Source: Gillisia sp.
Lineage (GTDB): Bacteria > Bacteroidota > Bacteroidia > Flavobacteriales > Flavobacteriaceae
Length of the DNA stretch: 38,861 nt
Assembly: GCA_024635655.1 (NCBI GenBank)
Contig: JAGXIL010000082.1
Coordinates: forward strand, 1-38,861
Direction: 5' to 3'
Numbering within the stretch: the stretch's first letter is position 1; each line of letters starts with the position of its first letter. The notes beneath the pieces are model-generated. The model was given only the letters and a program-made list of their open reading frames with translations, had not been told where the DNA came from and made no database searches. Shown one piece after another: positions 24,914 to 38,861 of this stretch. Made by a program: the position numbers and the translations under genes.

Positions 24914-26383
24914 TTATTTAACTTCCAATACCCCCATCATTCCCTGATCCTCATGATCCAGAATGTGACAATGATACATCCATTTTCCTTTGTAATTATC
25001 ATAACGCACAATAAAGCGGGCCTTTTCAAAACCGGGAACATTTACTACATCCTCCCATTTCCGTTGAGATACCGGAACATTGTTACGATCGATAACCTGG
25101 AACTGAAAACCATGCAGATGAAATGGATGATCCATTCCTACAAGATTCCTTATTTCCCATATTTCGGTCGCTCCCAGTTCTGCGGTTTCATCTATACGTT
25201 TCATGTCCATGATCTTACTGTTGATCTTTCCATTGCTCATACGCATTATTCTGGTCTCTGTCGCATCTTCAATCTTTAATGTTGGAATTTTACGCAAGGT
25301 TTCCGGCACTACAAATTGTTTTTCAACCGATGGTTCAGAAGTGTAAGTGAGTTTCAAAAGTTCCCGCCTTTTGTCCCAGTCCTCAGGTCGCCACATTGCC
25401 ATATAACGATCGTAGGGAAGTGCCTGCAGCGTAACTTTACTTCCGGGATCAGCTGTTCCATGCACAAGAACTTCGGCCCGTTCTCCATTGGCAAGTACAA
25501 TTTCATCTATTACCTCCGGGTGTTCAAAAAGTCCACCATCACTTCCAACATGTGTGAATTTGTGGCCTTCAATGCCAAGTCGAAAGGTTCGGGCACCCGA
25601 AGCGTTCACAATTCGCCAACGCTGAACCTCGCCGCTACGGATAGACAGCTCCGGCATAATCTCGTCATTGACAAACAAAACATCCCCTTCCCGTCCGTTC
25701 ATGTCATCCACCTGCTTCTGACGAGTATTGGCCTTCGCAAAATCTAATTCTCCATTTTCATCAAATCGGTTATCGGATAGAATAAGCAGCTTATCTTCCA
25801 AAGTATTAGGCAGTGGATTGTTCGGATCACGAACAATAATACCGCCGTAGAGTCCCATTCCCACCTGCCAGGCGGTGCGGTGATGCGGGTGAGGATGATA
25901 CCAGTAAGTACCCGCTGTACCTTCATGCAATCTAAATCGGTAGGTGAAGGATTCACCGGCTGCGATTGGGTGAAATGGACTGCCGTCCATGATAAAAGGT
26001 AAATGCAGCCCGTGCCAGTGTACAGTAGTCATCTCAGAAAGATTGTTTGTGAAATGCACAATAATACTATCGCCTTCAAATGCCTCCAGCATAGGTCCGG
26101 GAACAGTTCCATTATAGGCATAAACGTTGGATTCGCTTCCGGGTTTCAGGGAAAGACGCTCCGGAGATGCAGTAAGTTCCACTTCCACAATTCCCGGTTC
26201 AGAAGAAATGTTTTTTAACACCGGATGTCCGGCTACTTTCTTCTCACTTTTTATCATTTTGGAAGAGTTTTCAATTTCTTTTTCCTGAGCATAAAAGGGC
26301 AACTCAGCACCTCCCGCTGTACTATAAACAATTGTGAACAATAATGCTACTACTGAAATTACTAAAAATACTTTCTGCTTCAT
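24914..26383 (-). CDS. Multicopper oxidase, periplasmic
   Basis: A 489-residue three-cupredoxin-domain oxidase (laccase/CueO/FtsP-like superfamily) with a signal peptide. All copper motifs are present: HWHGLHLP (H122, H124), YWYHPHPHHRTAW (H163, H165), HPFHLHG (H419, H422, H424) and HCHILDHEDQGM (H471, C472, H473, H477 with axial M482). It should therefore hold one type 1 copper and a trinuclear type 2/3 centre and reduce oxygen to water while oxidising a substrate. There is no Met-rich insert like that of CueO, so cuprous oxidation is possible but not indicated. It is the last gene after four copper-site paralogues (14 bp from the nearest), which suggests they deliver electrons or copper to it. 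Confidence 0.93.
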   Translation of the reverse strand: MKQKVFLVISVVALLFTIVYSTAGGAELPFYAQEKEIENSSKMIKSEKKVAGHPVLKNISSEPGIVEVELTASPERLSLKPGSESNVYAYNGTVPGPMLEAFEGDSIIVHFTNNLSEMTTVHWHGLHLPFIMDGSPFHPIAAGESFTYRFRLHEGTAGTYWYHPHPHHRTAWQVGMGLYGGIIVRDPNNPLPNTLEDKLLILSDNRFDENGELDFAKANTRQKQVDDMNGREGDVLFVNDEIMPELSIRSGEVQRWRIVNASGARTFRLGIEGHKFTHVGSDGGLFEHPEVIDEIVLANGERAEVLVHGTADPGSKVTLQALPYDRYMAMWRPEDWDKRRELLKLTYTSEPSVEKQFVVPETLRKIPTLKIEDATETRIMRMSNGKINSKIMDMKRIDETAELGATEIWEIRNLVGMDHPFHLHGFQFQVIDRNNVPVSQRKWEDVVNVPGFEKARFIVRYDNYKGKWMYHCHILDHEDQGMMGVLEVK

Positions 26384-26397
26384 ATAATTGTTTTTGA

Positions 26398-27315
26398 CTA
26401 TTTCACTGTTACTTCTTTTAAGACACCCAGGGAACCGGTTGCCTCGGATACAAAGAGATATCGCCCCGGATCCAGATCCACCGTGAAATAACCTGTTTCA
26501 CCCTGCTGCAGGATATGCATGCCTCCATGAAAACTGGCGGGTGCGGGTGGCCACAGGCCGCTAATGTTTAGCCAGTCCATCCAATCAACTACCTTGTGAA
26601 TACTAGATTCTGGCTCAAGCCGGACAACATTTACATTGTGCATAAGTCCCTCTGCATGATGAACAGCTATTGTATGTTTTCCGGGTGTTAAATCGCCATC
26701 AATAGACATCTTGTTGTTCGTCAGTGTTATTCTGATGTTAGCTTCAGGTGGTTTTGTATCAGATCGATGATTGGTGACTTTAAGTTCTCGTATCATGCCT
26801 TCCATAGCATGAAGTTCACCATCTACAGTTTTTACATAGCACTCCATAGCGTAAGTACCCGGCTCCAGGTTTAACGTTATTATGGAGGTAAATCCCGGCG
26901 CGATGATTCCGCCGCCGCCCCTCCATTGTTTAGCAGCATTGAACCATTCGGGCAATTCGAATTTTTGTCGTGCTTCTGGCAGACTCAGGCCTTCATCCCT
27001 TACTCCCAGCCACAAGTCATTTACCTGCGGATATACTTCACTGGTGAAGTCTTCGAAAGTTTTGTCGTTAGGAAGCCGATGGAAAAGAAGCATATGAGGT
27101 TCTTGGCCATTGTTGGTGTACTCAATGGCCGTCCAGCCCGAGGGAATCTCATCTGGTGCTTCGAAAGCGTAATCAATGGCTGTTATATTGATCATGTCAT
27201 CATTATGCACATCGTGTGGAGGGGATGCTTCCTGAGCATGGCTGGGTGTGAAGATCAATAAACAACAAGTGGCAAATGCCGGAAGTGTAAATGTAATAAA
27301 ACTTTTGAATTTCAT
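26398..27315 (-). CDS. Two-domain cupredoxin-like secreted protein, paralogue 1
   Basis: A 305-residue exported protein (signal to about residue 28, TPSHAQ). Domain 1 (about 40-182) has a full type 1 copper ligand set: H74 in QEPHMLLF, C159, H169 and M174 in MECYVKTVDGELHAMEGM (Cys-x9-His-x4-Met), close to the Cys-x8-His-x4-Met spacing of copper nitrite reductase. A helical insert of about 60 residues separates the His loop from the Cys loop. Domain 2 (about 192-305) repeats the beta-sandwich pattern but has no Cys (DPGRYLFVSEATGSLGVL). It starts the final pair of the operon, 14 bp before the oxidase gene, and is followed by it directly. Function as a copper electron carrier is inferred. Confidence 0.85.
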   Translation of the reverse strand: MKFKSFITFTLPAFATCCLLIFTPSHAQEASPPHDVHNDDMINITAIDYAFEAPDEIPSGWTAIEYTNNGQEPHMLLFHRLPNDKTFEDFTSEVYPQVNDLWLGVRDEGLSLPEARQKFELPEWFNAAKQWRGGGGIIAPGFTSIITLNLEPGTYAMECYVKTVDGELHAMEGMIRELKVTNHRSDTKPPEANIRITLTNNKMSIDGDLTPGKHTIAVHHAEGLMHNVNVVRLEPESSIHKVVDWMDWLNISGLWPPAPASFHGGMHILQQGETGYFTVDLDPGRYLFVSEATGSLGVLKEVTVK

Positions 27316-27408
27316 TTTTGTTGAATTAGGTGTTGATCAATTCCATTGCAGGTTCTTACTACCGGAAGAGCGATCACAGTCACTGCATCCAATTTGATAT
27401 GACAGTCT

Positions 27409-28335
27409 TTACTCTACAGTAAATATTTTATACAAACCCTTGCCTTGGGACACAAAAACAACCCATGCATAATCCCCGGGTTCCTTAATATTCACAGAAA
27501 AATATGCAGTGTCTGCTACTCTCTCGACAATACCTCCAAGAAATTCTACAGGCGAGGGAGATCTCAATCCGCCAACTTTGTACCAATCCAGCCATTCATT
27601 TACTTCTTCCAGGTCTGTTCCTGCTTCAAGGCGCACCAGGTGCAGATTGTTATGATAGGATCCTCCATTGGAATTCTTGTTTAATCCAACCTCAAAGGCA
27701 TGTTTTCCTTTTATCGGTTCCCAATCCACTTCGATTTCATTTTCGTACAGGGTAATTCTTGATTCCGGATTTGGCAAGGGATTGTCTTCAGCACCTCCAC
27801 TAACGTTGAACTCCCAATGCATTCCCCGCATAATATGTATAATTCCGTCCTCCGTTTTCAGCCAACAGATCAACAGATACTCCCCCGGTTCCAGGTAAAC
27901 CGTCCTTTCAGCAGTTCTTCCGGGAGATGCCAGTCCACGTTCGGTGACATAACGAAGACCACCTGACCATTCGGGCAGTAGTTCATTCGTTCTATCGCTG
28001 ATTTCGGAGCGCTCTATAACACCTTCCTGATATTCACGTAAAACGGTTTCCCAGCCGATCATATAATCTGTAAGATAATCTTCATGGGTCACCCCCTCGG
28101 GCAGCTCTACTAAACTTATCTCGTGCATTTCACCGGCCATCTGATTACTCAAAACAAATGTGATCCATCCGGAGGGAAGTTCCTTGGGTGCATCAACATC
28201 AAAAGCGTGATCCATAGCTTCCACATGAACAGTAACTTCCTGTGATTGTCCATATACCAGGCCGGACATTAAAAAAATTAAACTCGTAATAATGGTTGTT
28301 ATGATAAACAGTAAACCTTTAAATAAATTCAACAT
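27409..28335 (-). CDS. Two-domain cupredoxin-like secreted protein, paralogue 2 (divergent)
   Basis: A 308-residue exported protein (signal to about residue 30). The type 1 copper set is kept: H71 in GEMHEISL, C157, H167 and M172 in LLICWLKTEDGIIHIMRGM. It is the most divergent of the four: the usual MECY becomes LICW, the His loop lacks the E-P-H triplet, and domain 2 changes GHNVHVARL to NNLHLVRL and the end to EPGDYAWVVFVSQGKGLY. A cluster of aromatic residues near the copper ligands may tune potential or partner choice. It follows 99 bp after paralogue 3, and the gap contains an oxidase-start remnant. Confidence 0.83.
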   Translation of the reverse strand: MLNLFKGLLFIITTIITSLIFLMSGLVYGQSQEVTVHVEAMDHAFDVDAPKELPSGWITFVLSNQMAGEMHEISLVELPEGVTHEDYLTDYMIGWETVLREYQEGVIERSEISDRTNELLPEWSGGLRYVTERGLASPGRTAERTVYLEPGEYLLICWLKTEDGIIHIMRGMHWEFNVSGGAEDNPLPNPESRITLYENEIEVDWEPIKGKHAFEVGLNKNSNGGSYHNNLHLVRLEAGTDLEEVNEWLDWYKVGGLRSPSPVEFLGGIVERVADTAYFSVNIKEPGDYAWVVFVSQGKGLYKIFTVE

Positions 28336-28377
28336 CTTTTCTCCTTTTTTTAACTGTTAGTGCTGTTTTTGTAATTC

Positions 28378-28434
28378 TTATTGCTACTCCTGAGATTAAC
28401 AAAAATAATATCTGCTTCCTATAATCCATTTTGA
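28378..28434 (-). pseudogene. 5' stub of a lost second multicopper oxidase gene
   Basis: The DNA directly after the stop of paralogue 3 aligns with the DNA directly after the stop of paralogue 1, which is the oxidase start. By hand I count 53 identities in 64 positions without gaps (28378-28441 against 26341-26404). The oxidase ATG is AGG here, followed by codons KQILFLLISGVAI against KQKVFLVISVVAL in the intact gene. The similarity fades after about 16 codons, before the start of paralogue 2. It marks a deleted oxidase copy. Confidence 0.7.
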
Positions 28435-29373
28435 CTATTTCACCTTAATTTCCTGAAATACGCCTTTATTCGCCGTAGCCCCCGATACGAACAGATACCG
28501 ACCCGGCGAAAGATCTATTGTAAAATATCCCGGTCTGTTTAATGGCAGGAAGTGCATCCCGCCAATAAAAGTTGTGTGATCGGGAGTGGGCTCGCGCATG
28601 CCGTTCGGAGAATACCAGTTCATCCATTGCACCACTTCCTGCAGGTTCGCGCCGGCACCTAATCGTGCTACATGAACATCATGACCTAAACCCTTATCAG
28701 GTTTTTCGGTTATCTGCACCTCCACTACTCGTTTTCCGGCAGAAAGATCTCCATGGACTTTCAGCTCATTATTGGAGACTTTGACCAGAATGTCAGCCTC
28801 TGGTGCGGTTCCACCAAAATTTTTATCGAGTACGCGAATCGGTCTGGCCATTCCTTCCATAAAGTGGATCTCCCCATCTTCCGTTTTAATATAACATTCC
28901 ATAGCATAATTCCCCGGAGGCAGATTGATGGTAGTCTCTGCTACTCCACCCGGCATTACAAGACCTGCTCCACCCATTCTTTCTACGCCCCAAAACCATT
29001 CAGGAACAGTCTTACCTAATATTTCAGTTATCTCCTGCGGAGTTTTTTTTCCATCCCTAAGTTGATACCACGCCTTGTTGAATGGGGGACCGGCCTCAGT
29101 TAAGTAATCATCTACTGTTTTGCCCTCAGGTAAGCGGCTAAAAAGAATAAGATGGGGATCCTCACCTTCATTGCTGAATCGGATATTCCTCCAGCCGGAT
29201 TCTATTTCCTCAGGTGCTTCAAATGCATAATCTGACGCAATAATCTCAACTACTTCAATTTTACCATTTGCCCTATCTGTTGTTGAATTCTGGGCTTGTA
29301 AGGGTGAGTAACAAAATATTAGAAGACCTGTAACCATCTGAATTATATCTCTTATCGAATTTATTCTCTTCAT
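28435..29373 (-). CDS. Two-domain cupredoxin-like secreted protein, paralogue 3
   Basis: A 312-residue exported protein (signal to about residue 28, PLQAQ). Domain 1 ligands: H74 in EDPHLILF, C160, H170 and M175 in MECYIKTEDGEIHFMEGM. The insert region carries the W-Y-x-L-R-D-G and PEWFWG motifs shared with paralogue 4. Domain 2 (about 190-312) keeps GHDVHVARL and GGMHFLP, ending with the Cys-less PGRYLFVSGATANKGVF. An oxidase-start remnant lies immediately downstream, so this gene once headed a cupredoxin-oxidase pair like paralogue 1. Confidence 0.85.
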   Translation of the reverse strand: MKRINSIRDIIQMVTGLLIFCYSPLQAQNSTTDRANGKIEVVEIIASDYAFEAPEEIESGWRNIRFSNEGEDPHLILFSRLPEGKTVDDYLTEAGPPFNKAWYQLRDGKKTPQEITEILGKTVPEWFWGVERMGGAGLVMPGGVAETTINLPPGNYAMECYIKTEDGEIHFMEGMARPIRVLDKNFGGTAPEADILVKVSNNELKVHGDLSAGKRVVEVQITEKPDKGLGHDVHVARLGAGANLQEVVQWMNWYSPNGMREPTPDHTTFIGGMHFLPLNRPGYFTIDLSPGRYLFVSGATANKGVFQEIKVK

Positions 29374-29531
29374 AAACTCTTAATTTAGTTATTTAATTAT
29401 CTCCTTATAAAACAATAACTTATTTTCAGGTCACTATTAAAAAGACGTTGCATCAATGACTTCTGTCACAGCTCAAAATCCATTTAAAACAGACCCATAG
29501 CTGAATGATGTCAAGCCTTCTAAACGACCTT

Positions 29532-30461
29532 CTATTCCACAGTTACTTCCTGGAACACACCTAAATGGCCGGTGTACTCGGAATAGAAAAGATATCGGCC
29601 GGGTTCCATATCCAGACTAAAGTAGCCGGTACCACCTTCAGGAAGCAGTTGCATACCTCCGGCAAAAATGACCGGACTCGGGTTTTGCAGGCCATTAACA
29701 TCAAACCAGTTCATCCATTCAGCCACCTCTTGTGCGTCAGTGTCTTCTGTTAGGCGGGCGACATGTACGTTATGGCCGTATCCTTCTTCCGGGTTTTCTG
29801 CCACATGAACGGAGACGGTATGATTACCGGGAGAGAGATTGCCATCGATAGCCATTTCAAAATTTGAAAGCGTGATGGCGATGTCGGCCTCTGGCGCAGC
29901 TGCCTCTGATGGCGTATCAGATACAACCAGCTCTCGCAGCATACCTTCCATTGAGTGTAATTCTCCATCTTCGGTTTTCATATAACACTCCATAGCGTAT
30001 ATACCGGGTTCCAGGTTGAGGGTCACATCTGTGGTCCTGCCGGCAGAAATAAGACCGGCTCCTCCTGTAAACTCGAGGGTCCAGAACCAGTCGGGCATTT
30101 GTGCTCCCAATCTCTCATAAACTTCCTCAGTGTTTATTCCTTCATCCCTTAAAGCATACCAGACTGCGTTAAATGGCACAAGTGCATCACCGGCATATTC
30201 ATCAAAAGTTACATCTTCCGGCATCCTGGTCAAGAACAGAAAATGTGGTTCATTCCCTTCATTTTTGTACTCGAAAGTTGTCCACCCGGATGCTACTTCC
30301 TTAGGTGCATCAAAGGCATAATCTGATGCTGTTATTAATACTATATCAGATTGTGAATTCGGTTCAGGTACTGCTGATTGGGCCCGGGATTGAATACCGA
30401 TTAGCATCATAGAGATAAAAAGAAAAGCAGGTAACGGTAAAACAAATTTAGAAATCATCAT
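29532..30461 (-). CDS. Two-domain cupredoxin-like secreted protein, paralogue 4 (first in operon)
   Basis: A 309-residue exported protein (signal to about residue 28, QSRAQ). Domain 1 ligands: H73 in NEPHFLFL, C159, H169 and M174 in MECYMKTEDGELHSMEGM. The insert resembles paralogue 3 (WYALRDEG; PDWFWTLEFTGGAG). Domain 2 has GHNVHVARL and ends LEPGRY-like (MEPGRYLFYSEYTGHLGVF) with no Cys. It is the first gene of the minus-strand run that ends with the oxidase, and a 408-bp divergent region separates it from the peptidase-like gene at 30870. The gap to paralogue 3 is 158 bp, the largest in the run, so internal promoters are possible. Confidence 0.85.
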   Translation of the reverse strand: MMISKFVLPLPAFLFISMMLIGIQSRAQSAVPEPNSQSDIVLITASDYAFDAPKEVASGWTTFEYKNEGNEPHFLFLTRMPEDVTFDEYAGDALVPFNAVWYALRDEGINTEEVYERLGAQMPDWFWTLEFTGGAGLISAGRTTDVTLNLEPGIYAMECYMKTEDGELHSMEGMLRELVVSDTPSEAAAPEADIAITLSNFEMAIDGNLSPGNHTVSVHVAENPEEGYGHNVHVARLTEDTDAQEVAEWMNWFDVNGLQNPSPVIFAGGMQLLPEGGTGYFSLDMEPGRYLFYSEYTGHLGVFQEVTVE

Positions 30462-30869: not shown

Positions 30870-31805
30870 ATGCAAAAATCTATTTCCTTTATAAAATTAT
30901 TATTAGCGGTAACAGTATTTTCATTTTTATTTCCAGTAAATATTTTTGCGCAGACAAATTATCACAATTCACTCGAAAAGGTTCGCACGCTTCCTTTGGA
31001 TTCAGCCAGTCATGGTATTATTGTCCATTTCCCTGAAGGTGGGGAGGAAAGAGCCCGGGAATTAGGCCCTATGCTGGGAGAAGCTCTGGAGTTCTTTTCT
31101 GATTCCCTGAAAGTGGATCTTGATTTTCGTTTGGCACTGCTTAGGGAAGAACATTGGAAAGAAATTACCAATTATCCCTATGCCATTCCTCACGTAAGTT
31201 CCGAAAATTCCCGGGCCATTGCCTTCCTGCCATTGGATCAGGATGGAGTTGTATATGATATGATGATATCTTTTAAAGACAGGATTTCCTCAGACCTCAG
31301 TGAAGAAGTGACCGAAACCGGTTTTTCCTATGAGGGGTTTTCAAATAAAATGGTTGACCTCATTGGATTTCATGAAATTGGGCATCCTTATGCAAATGTT
31401 TACGGAATTGGCCAACCCGCACGCTGGTTCAACGAATTTGTCGCTAATTATTTTCTATATGCTTTCCTGCGCACCAACTATCCCAAAGATGCTCAAATCT
31501 GGGATCTCTCCACAAAAATTATTTTGGATGACTATGAACCAAATTACAGAACCCTGGAAGACTTTGAAGAACACTATGTGGGGGTTGGAGCGGATAATTA
31601 TGGTTGGTATCAAGCAAATTTTGAAAGCAAAGCCAATGATCTTTATGAAGAGCGGGGTTTCTCCTTCATAAGGGAATTGAAAGAAAACTTCCCGGAAGGA
31701 GAGGGTAAACTTCCCAATGAGGTTATTTTGGCAAGACTTGAAAAGATGGAACGCGGTTTTAAGGAGTGGGCTACGACATTTGAAGAAAAGTCAAAGGATA
31801 ACTAA
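30870..31805 (+). CDS. Secreted zinc-peptidase-like protein (HExxH)
   Basis: A 311-residue exported protein (signal to about residue 28, NIFAQ). The zinc site H168-E-I-G-H172 in LIGFHEIGHPYANVYG is followed 17 residues later by E189 in WFNEFVANYFLYAFL, the arrangement of a gluzincin (peptidase MA-like) fold with Glu as third ligand. A region before it (HFPEGGEERARELGPML...LALLREEHWKEI) is shared with a decayed paralogue at 34801-35117. It may be an active periplasmic peptidase or a non-proteolytic relative; substrate unknown. An AraC-gene stub lies just upstream, suggesting it was once paired with such a regulator. Confidence 0.8.
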   Translation: MQKSISFIKLLLAVTVFSFLFPVNIFAQTNYHNSLEKVRTLPLDSASHGIIVHFPEGGEERARELGPMLGEALEFFSDSLKVDLDFRLALLREEHWKEITNYPYAIPHVSSENSRAIAFLPLDQDGVVYDMMISFKDRISSDLSEEVTETGFSYEGFSNKMVDLIGFHEIGHPYANVYGIGQPARWFNEFVANYFLYAFLRTNYPKDAQIWDLSTKIILDDYEPNYRTLEDFEEHYVGVGADNYGWYQANFESKANDLYEERGFSFIRELKENFPEGEGKLPNEVILARLEKMERGFKEWATTFEEKSKDN

Positions 31806-32105: not shown

Positions 32106-33044
32106 ATGAGAAAAGTAGGCATTATAGGAGCTTCAGGCTTTATTGGAAGCTATAACACGAAAAAGTTCCTGGAGGAAGGATATAAAGTAAAAGCATCCAC
32201 TACGGATCTTTCCAGGGAAGAAAAATATGAACATTTAGAATCTCTACCTAAAGCGGACAATTTGGAAATTGTAGAAATGAATGTTGCAAACAAAGATGAA
32301 CTGAAAAGCTTTCTTGAAGGATGTAATATCGTCATACACGGTGGTACTCCATTCCAACTTGACGTTAAAGATCCTAAAGCTGAATTGCTGGATCCAACAA
32401 TAGAGGGTACTAAAAACTTTCTTGAGATTGTTCAAAGATTACCAGGTATTGAAAAAGTTGTTTTCATTGCATCTGTTGCAGCATATAATACAAATTTCCC
32501 ACTACTTCCCTCTAATATTGGCCAGGATGAGTCAATTACTGAGAATAGCACCCCTTTTAGAAGTGATGACAGCCATCCTTATGCTCAGGCAAAATTTATT
32601 GCTAATCAAACAGTTGAAAAATTTATAGACGAACATCTTTATCTAAATTTTGAAATAACCAGCGTTTCTCCCGTGGGGGTAATGGGTAAGGCCATGTCTC
32701 AGCGGGAGGATTCGACTTCTATGGGACTACAATTTTTGTTCAAAAACAGAATCGCCCCTAATCCTTTTATTCAAATGTTTTATGATAAAAATATATACTT
32801 TGCCGTCGTGGATGTGGAAGATATTGCTGATGCTGTATATAAGGCTGCAACAACAAAAGGAACTCATGGTAAGAATTACTTACTGTCAAGTGAAAGCTAT
32901 AGAGTGTCCGACATTTCCCTAATGCTAAATGATCGGGAACCAGAAGGCAAAGCAAAGATCATTTATCGATGTGACCTGGCGAAAAAAGAATTAGGAATCA
33001 ACTTCAAACCTGCAAAAATGCCCTTAAATAAATTCTCTGCTTAA
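32106..33044 (+). CDS. NAD(P)-dependent epimerase/reductase, extended SDR family
   Basis: A 312-residue cytosolic oxidoreductase. The Rossmann glycine motif is G8-A-S-G11-F-I-G14 at the N-terminus. Catalytic Ser123 lies in VFIASVAAYN, and the Y159-x3-K163 pair in HPYAQAKF. The sequence (EGTKNFLEIVQ, SVSPVGVMGKA, VDVEDIADAVYKA) is most like dihydroflavonol-4-reductase-type extended SDRs, which reduce ketones or aldehydes with NAD(P)H. The natural substrate cannot be inferred. It is followed by a small DUF6616-like gene 112 bp downstream and may share its transcript. Confidence 0.9.
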   Translation: MRKVGIIGASGFIGSYNTKKFLEEGYKVKASTTDLSREEKYEHLESLPKADNLEIVEMNVANKDELKSFLEGCNIVIHGGTPFQLDVKDPKAELLDPTIEGTKNFLEIVQRLPGIEKVVFIASVAAYNTNFPLLPSNIGQDESITENSTPFRSDDSHPYAQAKFIANQTVEKFIDEHLYLNFEITSVSPVGVMGKAMSQREDSTSMGLQFLFKNRIAPNPFIQMFYDKNIYFAVVDVEDIADAVYKAATTKGTHGKNYLLSSESYRVSDISLMLNDREPEGKAKIIYRCDLAKKELGINFKPAKMPLNKFSA

Positions 33045-33155
33045 GATCACAGGGAGGACACCATGTTTATGGAACTGGATGAGGCGAAGATCGGCACCAT
33101 CTGGAAGCAACTGAGGCTTAAACACAAATTACAAACTGAAAAAAAACCATTTATT

Positions 33156-33518
33156 ATGAGTAATTCAAATGAGAAAAAACAGCAGCTTTATGTAGAACTA
33201 TGGAATGCCAAACCTGCCTGGCTGGCTCTGAGCGAAAAGGAGCGCAGCGAGTATTTTGAAAAAGTCGGAAGCGAGATTGAAAAGCTTATGAAGGAAGGAA
33301 TAGAATTGGTGGGTTTTGCCCTGAATGATCAGGAAACTCCGCACCGAAGCGATTACAGATATATTGCTGCCTGGACACTGCCTTCGAAAGACCATGTTGA
33401 CATGCTTGAGGAGAGTGTATATGAAGCAGGATGGTACCGATATTTTGACCAGGTAAATGCCAGGGGAGAACTCGTCCCACCTCCTGTTGCTCTGGGAGAT
33501 ATGATCAAACTTAGCTAG
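33156..33518 (+). CDS. Small conserved protein, DUF6616-like
   Basis: A 120-residue soluble protein from MSNSNEKKQQLYVELWNAK. The segment WLALSEKERSEYFEKVGSEI with a later GWYRYFDQVNARGEL matches my memory of the DUF6616 family (dimeric alpha/beta-barrel-like small proteins); this is tentative. An upstream in-frame ATG at 33063 would add 31 residues and is preceded by a purine-rich AGGGAGGA, but the extra part is not conserved in style with the domain and I prefer 33156. Function unknown; likely co-expressed with the SDR gene. Confidence 0.72.
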   Translation: MSNSNEKKQQLYVELWNAKPAWLALSEKERSEYFEKVGSEIEKLMKEGIELVGFALNDQETPHRSDYRYIAAWTLPSKDHVDMLEESVYEAGWYRYFDQVNARGELVPPPVALGDMIKLS

Positions 33519-33841
33519 CTGATCCTTGCTTATTTTTAAATCCTGATTTATTTGCGGAATTTATATCAAGAGCAGCCAGCTCATTCAATTGTTTACTCAC
33601 TAAACCAATCCCAAGTTTGGTAGAGGGGGACCTTCATGATGCGGAAACGATCGAAATTATAGAGGAATGGCTTTAAAACTTGTTCAGGAAAAGTTCAACT
33701 GCTGCATTCTAACGGGTTTTAGTTAAGCTCTTGTTTTTGTACGTTTTTCTTCACAGACTTTCGTCCGGAGAAGAGCAAATGGAAACTCCTGCTTTTTCAC
33801 TATCTTTAAGAAAGAAGAACTTAAAAAGGCAATGCATTTCA
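33519..33841. other. Intergenic region before the AraC-type gene
   Basis: No supported gene. A short open tail on the plus strand (GDLHDAETIEIIEEWL before TAA at about 33674-33676) may be a remnant of a lost gene. An ATG at 33731 is in frame with the AraC gene but the conserved protein starts at 33842. Confidence 0.35.
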
Positions 33842-34669
33842 ATGGAGGTTAAAAATTACATCCCACATCCGGCTCTACAGGAATATGTTTTTAGGATATC
33901 TACTGTAGATGTCCTACTTCCGGAGGGCATGAAAGATGTGGTAACCCCTTTCCCCACAACTCCCTTTCAATCCCTCCTGTTCTACTGCAATAATCCAATA
34001 TCTATGAACAGAACAGGCGAAGGGGATTTTGAGAAACAACCTCTTTCCGTAGTACTGGGTCCGCAATTCACGCGTGTAAATCTAAAAGTTTACAATCGAC
34101 TCAGATGCATTTCGGTGGATCTACTTCCGGGAGGGATGTATAGAATTTTGGGCATTCCCATGCAGGAAATGTTTGATGGAGGATTTAATGCCCTTGATTT
34201 TTTCGGTGTAGAAATGAGAATTATCAAAGAAAAACTTCAGCATATACCAGATTTGGCGGAAGGTAAAAAAATTGTAGAAAAATTTCTGCTGAAGAAAGTT
34301 GTCGACCTCAAGGAAATATTACCTCTTGATTCGGCTTTGCAGACCCTCTTTAAATACCATGGTAATTTGTCTATGGATAAAACAGCATCTCTTTCCTGCC
34401 TTAGTCTTAGACAATTCGAAAGGAAGTGTAAGAAAAGATTAGGAATGAACCCTAAAACCTTTGCTCGAATCTTAAGATTTTCAAAGGCCTACAGGCTGCA
34501 CGAAGCTTTCCCCCACCTCAATTGGACAGAAATTGCATACAAAGCAGGATATTATGACCAGATGCATATGATCAGGGATTTTAAGACATTTGCCGGGGTA
34601 AATCCTTCAGTTATCAAACAGCAGCTGCTTACAACTCCATTGAGAATGCAAAAGGACCTCCCTATTTAG
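33842..34669 (+). CDS. AraC-family transcriptional regulator
   Basis: A 275-residue regulator starting MEVKNYIPHPALQEYVFRIS, the usual beginning of the DUF6597-type N-terminal sensing domain (HP-x-L-x-x-Y-V); an upstream ATG at 33731 would add 37 residues of no recognisable domain. The C-terminal part is an AraC/HTH_18 double helix-turn-helix (LSCLSLRQFERKCKKRLGM; ILRFSKAYRLHE; IAYKAGYYDQMHMIRDFKTF; AGVNPS). Effector unknown. It lies just upstream of a decayed peptidase gene (34801), and its 3' end is duplicated at 30703 upstream of the intact peptidase-like gene, so the pair was once a unit. Confidence 0.9.
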   Translation: MEVKNYIPHPALQEYVFRISTVDVLLPEGMKDVVTPFPTTPFQSLLFYCNNPISMNRTGEGDFEKQPLSVVLGPQFTRVNLKVYNRLRCISVDLLPGGMYRILGIPMQEMFDGGFNALDFFGVEMRIIKEKLQHIPDLAEGKKIVEKFLLKKVVDLKEILPLDSALQTLFKYHGNLSMDKTASLSCLSLRQFERKCKKRLGMNPKTFARILRFSKAYRLHEAFPHLNWTEIAYKAGYYDQMHMIRDFKTFAGVNPSVIKQQLLTTPLRMQKDLPI

Positions 34670-37512: not shown

Positions 37513-38861
37513 ATGTTTAGGACTATCGATTTTCCCGTGCATCGTCAACTGGATCAAATGGACTGTGGGCCTTCTTGTTTAAAGATGCTCACAGAGTTCT
37601 TCGGAAAAAAATATGATCTGGAATATTTAAGACAAATCTCTTTTCTACAAAGGGATGGAGCTTCTTTGGAAGGGCTTTCCAATGCATTGAACAAATTGGG
37701 AATAGAATCTGTCGGGATCAAGGTAAGTTTTGAGGAATTAATTTCAGAAATACCTCTTCCTGTAATTGCACATTGGGAGGGGAATCATTTTATAATAATT
37801 TATAAAGTTAATCACAAGTTCATTTATGTATCCGATCCTGCTTATGGCAGATTGAAATACCGCCACAGTGAATTTATTAGAAAATGGGCAGAGGCAGAGA
37901 ATGAACAAGGTGTTCTTCTTCTTGTAGAGCACACTGATCATTTTCTGGATGAGGAACCCCCGAAAGAAGGAAAGCGAAATGGGCTGGGATTTCTTTATGA
38001 TTATCTCAAACCTTATAAGGCATATATAAACCAGTTATTTCTGGGTTTAATAATTGCGGCCACTATTCAATTGATGCTTCCTTTCCTTACACAGAGTCTG
38101 GTGGACTATGGAATAAATTATGAAGATTTTGGGTTCATCAATCTTATATTATTATCACAATTCTTTTTGTTTTTTACGCGATCTGCATCCGAGGTGATCA
38201 GAGATTGGATTCTTTTGTATATAAGTACTCGTGTGAATATTCAAATGCTTTCAGATTTTTTAGGAAAACTGCTGAGTCTTCCTTTAGAATATTTTGAAAC
38301 AAAAAATACAGGCGATTTTATGCAAAGAATTTATGATCATCAGCGGATAGACGAGTTTTTAACCGGCCGTGGTTTAAACATCCCTTTTGATATCTTTTCT
38401 ATTGTAGTATTCGGAATTGTTTTGTCCTACTTTCATCCACAAATTGCACTTATCTTCTTAACCGGAACTTCCCTCTTTTTTGCGTGGTCACTATTATTTA
38501 TGAAGAAAAAAGAACTTCTGGATAACCAGCTTTTCGATCTTAACAGGAAAGATCAGTCCTTATTTCTGCAGATCATTCTGGCTGTCTCAGAAATTAAATT
38601 GAACAATTCAGAGAACCGCAGAAGAGGGGAGTGGGAAATTAATCAAAACATCCTTTTCAGGATAAAGTCAAAGATTTTAGGTGTAGGCCAGGCTCAAATA
38701 AAAGGCGGTCTATTTTTAAATGAATTAACGAATATTTTAATAATTTTCTGGTCTGCAAAAGCCGTAATTACTGGGGAAATTACTTTAGGGGCCATGTTAG
38801 CTATTCAATTTATTATTGGTAATTTATCCTTACCTATTTCGAATATCATCAATTTTCTTAC
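37513..38861 (+). CDS. C39-peptidase ABC exporter, partial (runs off the window)
   Basis: 449 codons are visible. The N-terminal C39 peptidase domain has catalytic C18 in QLDQMDCGPSCLKML, H92 in HWEGNHFIIIYKV and D108 in VSDPAYGRLKY. These proteases cut double-glycine leaders from bacteriocin-like peptides. An ABC transmembrane domain follows from about residue 170 (FLYDYLKPYKAYINQLFLGL; LPFLTQSLVDYGI; EYFETKNTGDFMQRI), typical of peptidase-containing bacteriocin/lantibiotic exporters. The ATP-binding domain lies beyond the window. It should export and mature peptides across the inner membrane, with a HlyD-like adaptor and TolC-type partner expected downstream. No leader peptide gene is visible on its upstream side. 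Confidence 0.93.
   Translation, partial: MFRTIDFPVHRQLDQMDCGPSCLKMLTEFFGKKYDLEYLRQISFLQRDGASLEGLSNALNKLGIESVGIKVSFEELISEIPLPVIAHWEGNHFIIIYKVNHKFIYVSDPAYGRLKYRHSEFIRKWAEAENEQGVLLLVEHTDHFLDEEPPKEGKRNGLGFLYDYLKPYKAYINQLFLGLIIAATIQLMLPFLTQSLVDYGINYEDFGFINLILLSQFFLFFTRSASEVIRDWILLYISTRVNIQMLSDFLGKLLSLPLEYFETKNTGDFMQRIYDHQRIDEFLTGRGLNIPFDIFSIVVFGIVLSYFHPQIALIFLTGTSLFFAWSLLFMKKKELLDNQLFDLNRKDQSLFLQIILAVSEIKLNNSENRRRGEWEINQNILFRIKSKILGVGQAQIKGGLFLNELTNILIIFWSAKAVITGEITLGAMLAIQFIIGNLSLPISNIINFL

Follow-up and report, generated by a model that had tools for sequence, protein, structure and literature searches.

Tandem type 1-like cupredoxins encoded with a multicopper oxidase in Gillisia sp. suggest a periplasmic copper-based electron chain

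An oxidase encoded with electron carriers of its own is known from Nitrosomonas, in which the ncgABC-nirK operon specifies a blue copper oxidase, small cytochrome c carriers, and a nitrite reductase. In the nitrite reductase NirK the type 1 copper lies in domain 1, and the His ligand of the type 2 copper adjoins the type 1 ligand Cys. We know of no oxidase paired with auracyanin, azurin, or plastocyanin. According to PMC4059628, the Cys and His ligands are two to four residues apart in blue and red cupredoxins, six apart in AcoP, and seven to eight apart in the green nitrite reductases. The locus described here, in a 38,861-nucleotide stretch of Gillisia sp. DNA (contig JAGXIL010000082.1, positions 1 to 38,861; "the window" below), consists of four genes for type 1-like cupredoxins, which we call carriers A–D, followed by a gene for a multicopper oxidase. 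We infer copper binding, copper colour, electron flow, and donor, and put at roughly 0.58 the probability that the main job of the locus is to move electrons from the carriers through the oxidase to O2.

The five open reading frames (ORFs) occupy the minus strand from 24914 to 30461 in the order A (29532-30461; 309 residues), B (28435-29373; 312 residues), C (27409-28335; 308 residues), D (26398-27315; 305 residues), and oxidase (24914-26383; 489 residues), separated by gaps of 158, 99, 93, and 14 bp. Their shared strand and spacing point to a single operon. All five products begin with an apparent signal peptide, judged by eye rather than by a predictor (residues ~1-27 in A). Identity to carrier A is 47% for B, 36% for C, and 48% for D, and all four share the residues H73, C159, H169, and M174 (A numbering) in the pattern H...C-x9-H-x4-M, which in C includes the loop CWLKTEDGIIHIMRGM. 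The original prediction of four tandem two-domain proteins, each keeping these ligands, is thus borne out. Once the signal peptide is removed by eye, each carrier retains a single Cys, the ligand itself, and the oxidase likewise retains one. The mature carriers have isoelectric points of 4.1, 5.2, 4.6, and 4.9 (A to D) and contain 6–10 Met and 7–13 His per ~280 residues (7, 7, and 9 His in A, B, and C), without His/Met-rich tails. With this ligand set, A–D very probably bind type 1 copper, and the sequences support their description as type 1-like copper proteins built on an exported two-cupredoxin frame.

Profile searches gave no match above cut-off for the carriers. All four fall under every Pfam cut-off, the best match being D to Cupredoxin_1 (24.7 of 27 bits), and an NCBIfam scan of A–D returned nothing above cut-off; the EfeO equivalog gave 14.5 bits for D and 11.5 bits for C against a cut-off of 270, and did not match A or B. 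A phmmer search of the Protein Data Bank with A yielded one match at chance level. Two known identities were considered for the carriers and rejected. The residue preceding the ligand Cys is E, E, I, and E in A–D, and across 97 homologue rows it is E in 73, D in 7, V in 6, I in 4, L in 3, S in 2, H in 1, and F in 1, so that the His of a NirK-type type 2 site is missing and the carriers should have no such site. The motifs HWHG, HPH, HPFH, HCH, and HxHG are all absent from A–D, which have few His, so they are not two-domain oxidases.

Structure prediction assigns carrier A a Greek-key cupredoxin beta-sandwich fold. The AlphaFold2 model of A, built from 32 sequences, consists of two beta domains with a mean predicted local distance difference test score (pLDDT) of 88.3; alignment indicates the same two-domain architecture for B. 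Domain 1 of A (residues 38-186; 29904-30350, minus strand) contains the type 1 ligand set, together with a helical insert at residues ~86-128 that is mostly missing from Deinococcus homologues. Modelled alone (pLDDT 91.4), it matches auracyanin first in Foldseek (6kol, E 2.8e-7; template modelling (TM) score 0.55 by query and 0.65 by target) and azurin third (4ko7, E 9.3e-6), with plastocyanin also among the matches. In the model His73 opens a strand, Cys159 lies just past a strand, and Met174 stands just ahead of the last strand, the usual type 1 order. The whole protein matches two- and three-domain oxidases (laccases) and nitrite reductases (best E 2.1e-9).

The Cys-His spacer is nine residues in all four carriers and, among the 97 aligned homologue rows, nine in 89, eight in 6, and 16 in 2, while the stretch from Cys to Met measures 16 residues in 89 of the 97 and 12–28 in the others. 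Because a spacer of nine exceeds the range of two to eight residues in PMC4059628, we predict that the carriers hold a green or otherwise perturbed copper site. That range comes from one paper, and the longer spacer marks a variant rather than an exclusion.

The carriers belong to a wider family that keeps this site. Counting distinct proteins that cover at least 230 profile positions (shorter and broken copies excluded), 94 of 97 homologues have the whole ligand quartet. Of the other three, L016 has Arg in place of the Cys, one L108 copy has Val in place of the Met, and the Deinococcus ficus protein retains none of the four in domain 1. Alignment A2 included a non-member (L011:7879-8778) and two copies from contig C88 of the Gillisia genome itself, which A3 omits while adding L016 and L026. 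One scan of genome contigs found 21 loci in records named Bacteroidota, Balneolota, Rhodothermota, Gemmatimonadota, Acidobacteriota, and Pseudomonadota, and plasmid records add three family members from Deinococcus and two from Gemmatirosa, which brings the spread to seven phyla as named by NCBI; some of the records are metagenome bins. The three annotated plasmid homologues are called "hypothetical protein." One Deinococcus homologue exceeds the Pfam cut-off for Cupredoxin_1 (31.5 of 27) and another that for Copper-bind (21.4 of 21.2), while those of D. ficus and Gemmatirosa fall under both. The literature surveyed, as titles and abstract openings drawn mostly from outside subscription journals and preprints, contains no description of the family or of the gene order. 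Two more family members occur in the Gillisia genome outside the window (L028:8029-10146, on C88). Their neighbours are a divergent BTAD/TPR regulator and a gene of the beta-lactamase family, and no oxidase lies nearer than 2.5 kb.

Domain 2 shows how the site may have evolved. In carrier A (residues 188-309; 29535-29900, minus strand), the first His region is kept as GHNVH, and the corresponding residues are GHDVH in B, HNNLH in C, and MHNVN in D; none of the four has a Cys loop. Domain 2 of A–D is a second cupredoxin that has kept its fold and lost its copper loop. In addition to the domain 1 set, the homologues from Deinococcus sp. D7000, D. aetherius, and Gemmatirosa have a separate His and C-xn-H-x4-M loop in domain 2; D. 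ficus has kept only the domain 2 set. The reciprocal loss and retention of the Cys-His-Met motif across Deinococcus, Gemmatirosa, and Bacteroidota-type homologues speaks strongly for its being a metal-site unit, of which the ancestor would have had one per domain. Two-site forms are encoded on Deinococcus and Gemmatirosa plasmids at L088:6001-6867, L089:5896-6768, and L133:5788-6759. The family thus adds to the cupredoxins an unnamed group whose chains have, depending on lineage, one type 1-like site or two, and offers a natural test of loop length and domain pairing as tuners of copper sites.

The oxidase matches Cu-oxidase_3, Cu-oxidase_2, and Cu-oxidase above the Pfam cut-offs and has 12 of 12 type 1, 2, and 3 copper ligands of Escherichia coli CueO in invariant columns of alignment A7, in agreement with the earlier claim that all its copper motifs are intact. 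It lacks the Met-rich insert of CueO and scores 256 bits against a cut-off of 525 for the NCBIfam CueO equivalog. The closest solved structure is 3zx1 (E 3e-87), which we take to be Campylobacter McoC, and Thermus laccases are also near.

No locus of the window's oxidase subfamily was found away from the carriers. The window's oxidase subfamily (searched at E up to 1e-70) is present in 7 of the 92 genomes of a Balneolaceae-type family, that of G267, at eight loci, in one of which the oxidase is split over two frames. At all eight, a carrier gene lies within 0.9 kb; it is adjacent in six, and a single SnoaL-like gene intervenes in two. A ninth stretch, in G486, has a carrier and a piece of oxidase cut at the contig end. 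Carriers occur in 31 of these 92 genomes, and the chance that all seven oxidase genomes would have them if distributed at random is 0.0003, ignoring kinship. In an even sample of the phylum (E up to 1e-100), the oxidase was found in 2 of 395 genomes including the window's own, at three loci that are all beside carriers and of which two are shared with the eight; carriers occur in 29 of the 395 (own genome included; six by weak partial matches only) and in 9 of the 60 nearest genomes, again including its own. The neighbourhood survey put forward with the original prediction therefore speaks for a carrier-oxidase pairing.

From the side of the carriers, an oxidase lies within 2.5 kb at 14 of 58 family loci, a count from which four duplicates were removed and in which several loci are short or at contig ends; the label was assigned with a profile of the window-type oxidase (E 1e-8), which may miss distant oxidases. 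By copy number, an oxidase is linked at five of 45 loci with one carrier gene, three of seven with two, and six of six with at least three. On Deinococcus plasmids, two of the three homologues are next to an oxidase that, unlike the window's, has a plastocyanin-like domain at its C-terminus. At L108:6796-14289, five family genes surround an oxidase 61% identical to that of the window; three of the proteins are 404-415 residues long, apparently with a third domain, and in two of them another Cys-x9-His loop lies close to the end. We consider it likely that the carriers are functionally coupled to the oxidase.

In Salegentibacter tibetensis (L007), the counterparts of A, B, C, and the oxidase show 80–89% identity to them, with ratios of nonsynonymous to synonymous substitution rates (dN/dS) of 0.30, 0.21, 0.20, and 0.09; because of these ratios and the intact ligand quartet in nearly all homologues, we do not regard the cluster as a product of chance. 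In a quick tree of the 97 rows, A, B, and D fall within a 19-row clade of exclusively oxidase-linked carriers (Shimodaira-Hasegawa-like approximate likelihood ratio test (SH-aLRT) 97), D grouping with the L009 and L011 copies (SH-aLRT 99), and C falls in a separate five-row clade of linked carriers only (SH-aLRT 100), beside unlinked ones. A recent tandem duplication of all four is not supported by this tree, as C belongs to another lineage and D sides with L009 and L011 rather than with A and B. Since A/B/D and C fall in separate clades, the set combines older lineages.

In the proposed mechanism, the carriers would be secreted, with one type 1 (predicted green) copper held in domain 1, and would act as periplasmic one-electron carriers for the co-encoded oxidase, whose own type 1 copper would accept the electrons and whose trinuclear centre would reduce O2 to water. 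Because the paralogues differ in charge and in the residues around the copper, several donors may be served by the one oxidase, or Cu(I) or another reduced metal may be oxidised directly; the range of isoelectric points and the divergent C are consistent with tuning to different donors. Similar groupings in distant bacteria suggest an electron chain based on copper and located outside the inner membrane. A more general form of the idea, which we offer tentatively and regard as doubtful in full, is a copper-only periplasmic oxidase chain, in which three to six paralogous long-loop (green) tandem-domain cupredoxins, descended from an ancestor with one copper per domain, relay electrons from several donors to a soluble oxidase that serves as an O2-reducing sink. 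If it is true, cupredoxins feeding a laccase-type oxidase would make up a self-contained periplasmic electron sink, and the dedicated oxidase would be a direct, assayable partner for the carriers.

Several observations weigh against a chain from carriers to oxidase. The search within 2.5 kb turned up no oxidase at 44 of the 58 family loci, although some of these end at contig ends, and most family members therefore probably work with something else. Most of the linked loci come from the one Balneolaceae-type family, the window's genome, and S. tibetensis, and are not independent events. In S. tibetensis, only a remnant of D is left, and in the contig as deposited the oxidase frame is interrupted at its start; the system may be dispensable there or the contig faulty, since decay and assembly error look alike. 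A scan of ORFs for CxxCH in the 14 linked loci found no credible c-type cytochrome donor, its only matches being the UvrA gene (L088) and an antisense ORF of 81 residues within a carrier gene (L009). On the structural side, the four best matches to domain 1 have moderate TM-scores (0.52-0.56 by query length), and the two-domain arrangement of A is unlike known ones (TM ~0.24 by Foldseek), so its domains would be set differently than in the matched oxidases and nitrite reductases. The periplasmic carrier-oxidase system of the original prediction accordingly stands in part: the exported, type 1-like proteins and their recurrent grouping with an oxidase uphold it, but as an account of the carriers it is incomplete, as the many loci without an oxidase nearby speak for a wider family.

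Copper tolerance is the main rival, though on balance an improbable one. The green carriers would then bind and oxidise periplasmic Cu(I), the oxidase would be a cuprous oxidase or laccase, and electron relay would be only part of detoxification. The nearness of the oxidase to 3zx1 fits this view, as does CopI, which PMC13308877 describes as cupredoxin-like, with a green copper site and a role in copper tolerance; a 2024 title in the reference list of that paper states that CopI oxidises Cu(I). However, the His/Met-rich tails and the CueO-type insert are lacking, and the motifs DKTGT (P-type ATPase) and GMxCxxC (heavy-metal domain) do not occur in ORFs of at least 80 residues in the 14 linked loci, by a crude motif test.

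We think it quite unlikely that the carriers instead load copper into the oxidase or buffer periplasmic copper. They are encoded together with the oxidase, and maturation factors for multicopper oxidases do exist, CutO requiring the cutF product by the title of PMC8456105. On the other hand, one enzyme would hardly seem to need four diverged loaders, at 44 loci no oxidase was found nearby, and Cys-His2-Met sites are expected to grip copper tightly.

An equally slim prospect is that the family serves a different redox process, in which the oxidase would be an optional partner of gene products recurrent near the carriers. Within 2.5 kb of the 58 loci are BTAD regulators (10), NAD(P)-dependent epimerase-type proteins of the short-chain dehydrogenase/reductase (SDR) class (5), SnoaL-like lipoproteins (5), and beta-lactamase-family hydrolases (5), and the 12.7 kb seen around the D. 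aetherius homologue includes genes of the BTAD and NmrA families but no oxidase. This leaves unexplained why the window's oxidase subfamily is found only near the carrier family. Copper storage, a role allowed for by the original prediction, fits badly and is rejected on composition, each mature carrier having one Cys and one four-ligand set.

Scans for promoters and terminators gave no clear signal. A promoter scan returned 27 promoter-like sites against 15.3 expected, and the best near the first gene overlaps the start codon of that gene; a Bacteroidota-type promoter pattern occurs at chance level and not upstream of A, and terminators were fewer than expected by chance. The raised GC content of the cluster (0.439 versus 0.376 in the remaining window) and the absence of sets of at least three carriers from the 15 same-genus genomes searched, four of them <85% complete, hint at horizontal arrival, but only hint, because another gene in the window also reaches 0.45.

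Upstream of A, a divergent gene (30870-31805, plus strand) encodes a secreted protein with HEIGH and, downstream, NE motifs, perhaps a metallopeptidase as judged by eye, with no Pfam family above cut-off. It is followed by genes for an NAD-dependent epimerase, a DUF6616 protein, and an AraC-type regulator (32106-34669, plus strand); related epimerases adjoin family genes at other loci. A SnoaL-like lipoprotein gene stands beside the carriers at L010, L011, L020, L068, and L069, four of which also have an oxidase. Elsewhere in the window are a protein with an erythromycin-esterase-type domain (PF05139; 13395-15764, minus strand) and a C39 peptidase with an ATP-binding cassette (ABC) transporter (37513-38859, plus strand), which runs past the window edge.

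Among known cupredoxins, auracyanin, azurin, and plastocyanin resemble domain 1 of the carriers in fold and ligand order, with auracyanin the best structural match, but are single-domain proteins with a shorter Cys-His spacer. AcoP, as described in PMC4059628, shares with the carriers an unusually long Cys-to-Met loop, an extra region, and an electron-transfer setting, and its homologues are annotated as hypothetical protein, like the annotated plasmid homologues of the carriers, or as multicopper oxidase; it is green and single-domain with a Cys-x6-His loop, whereas the carriers have two domains, Cys-x9-His, and paralogue sets beside an oxidase. CopI likewise has a periplasmic His-Cys-His-Met green site (green only by prediction in the carriers) but, in PMC13308877, is a single domain with His/Met-rich segments that A–D lack. 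NirK has two cupredoxin domains and a long Cys-His loop, as do the carriers; a His directly ahead of the ligand Cys is absent from A–D and occurs in one of 97 homologues. For the oxidase, CueO, 3zx1, and the Thermus laccases offer the same Pfam domains and all 12 CueO copper ligands; unlike CueO, it is without the Met-rich insert, falls below the NCBIfam CueO cut-off, and is encoded with cupredoxins. As a gene set, the closest parallel is the Nitrosomonas ncgABC-nirK operon, which likewise combines an oxidase with carriers of its own; there the oxidase is accompanied by cytochromes c and a nitrite reductase, whereas in the window its partners are cupredoxins.

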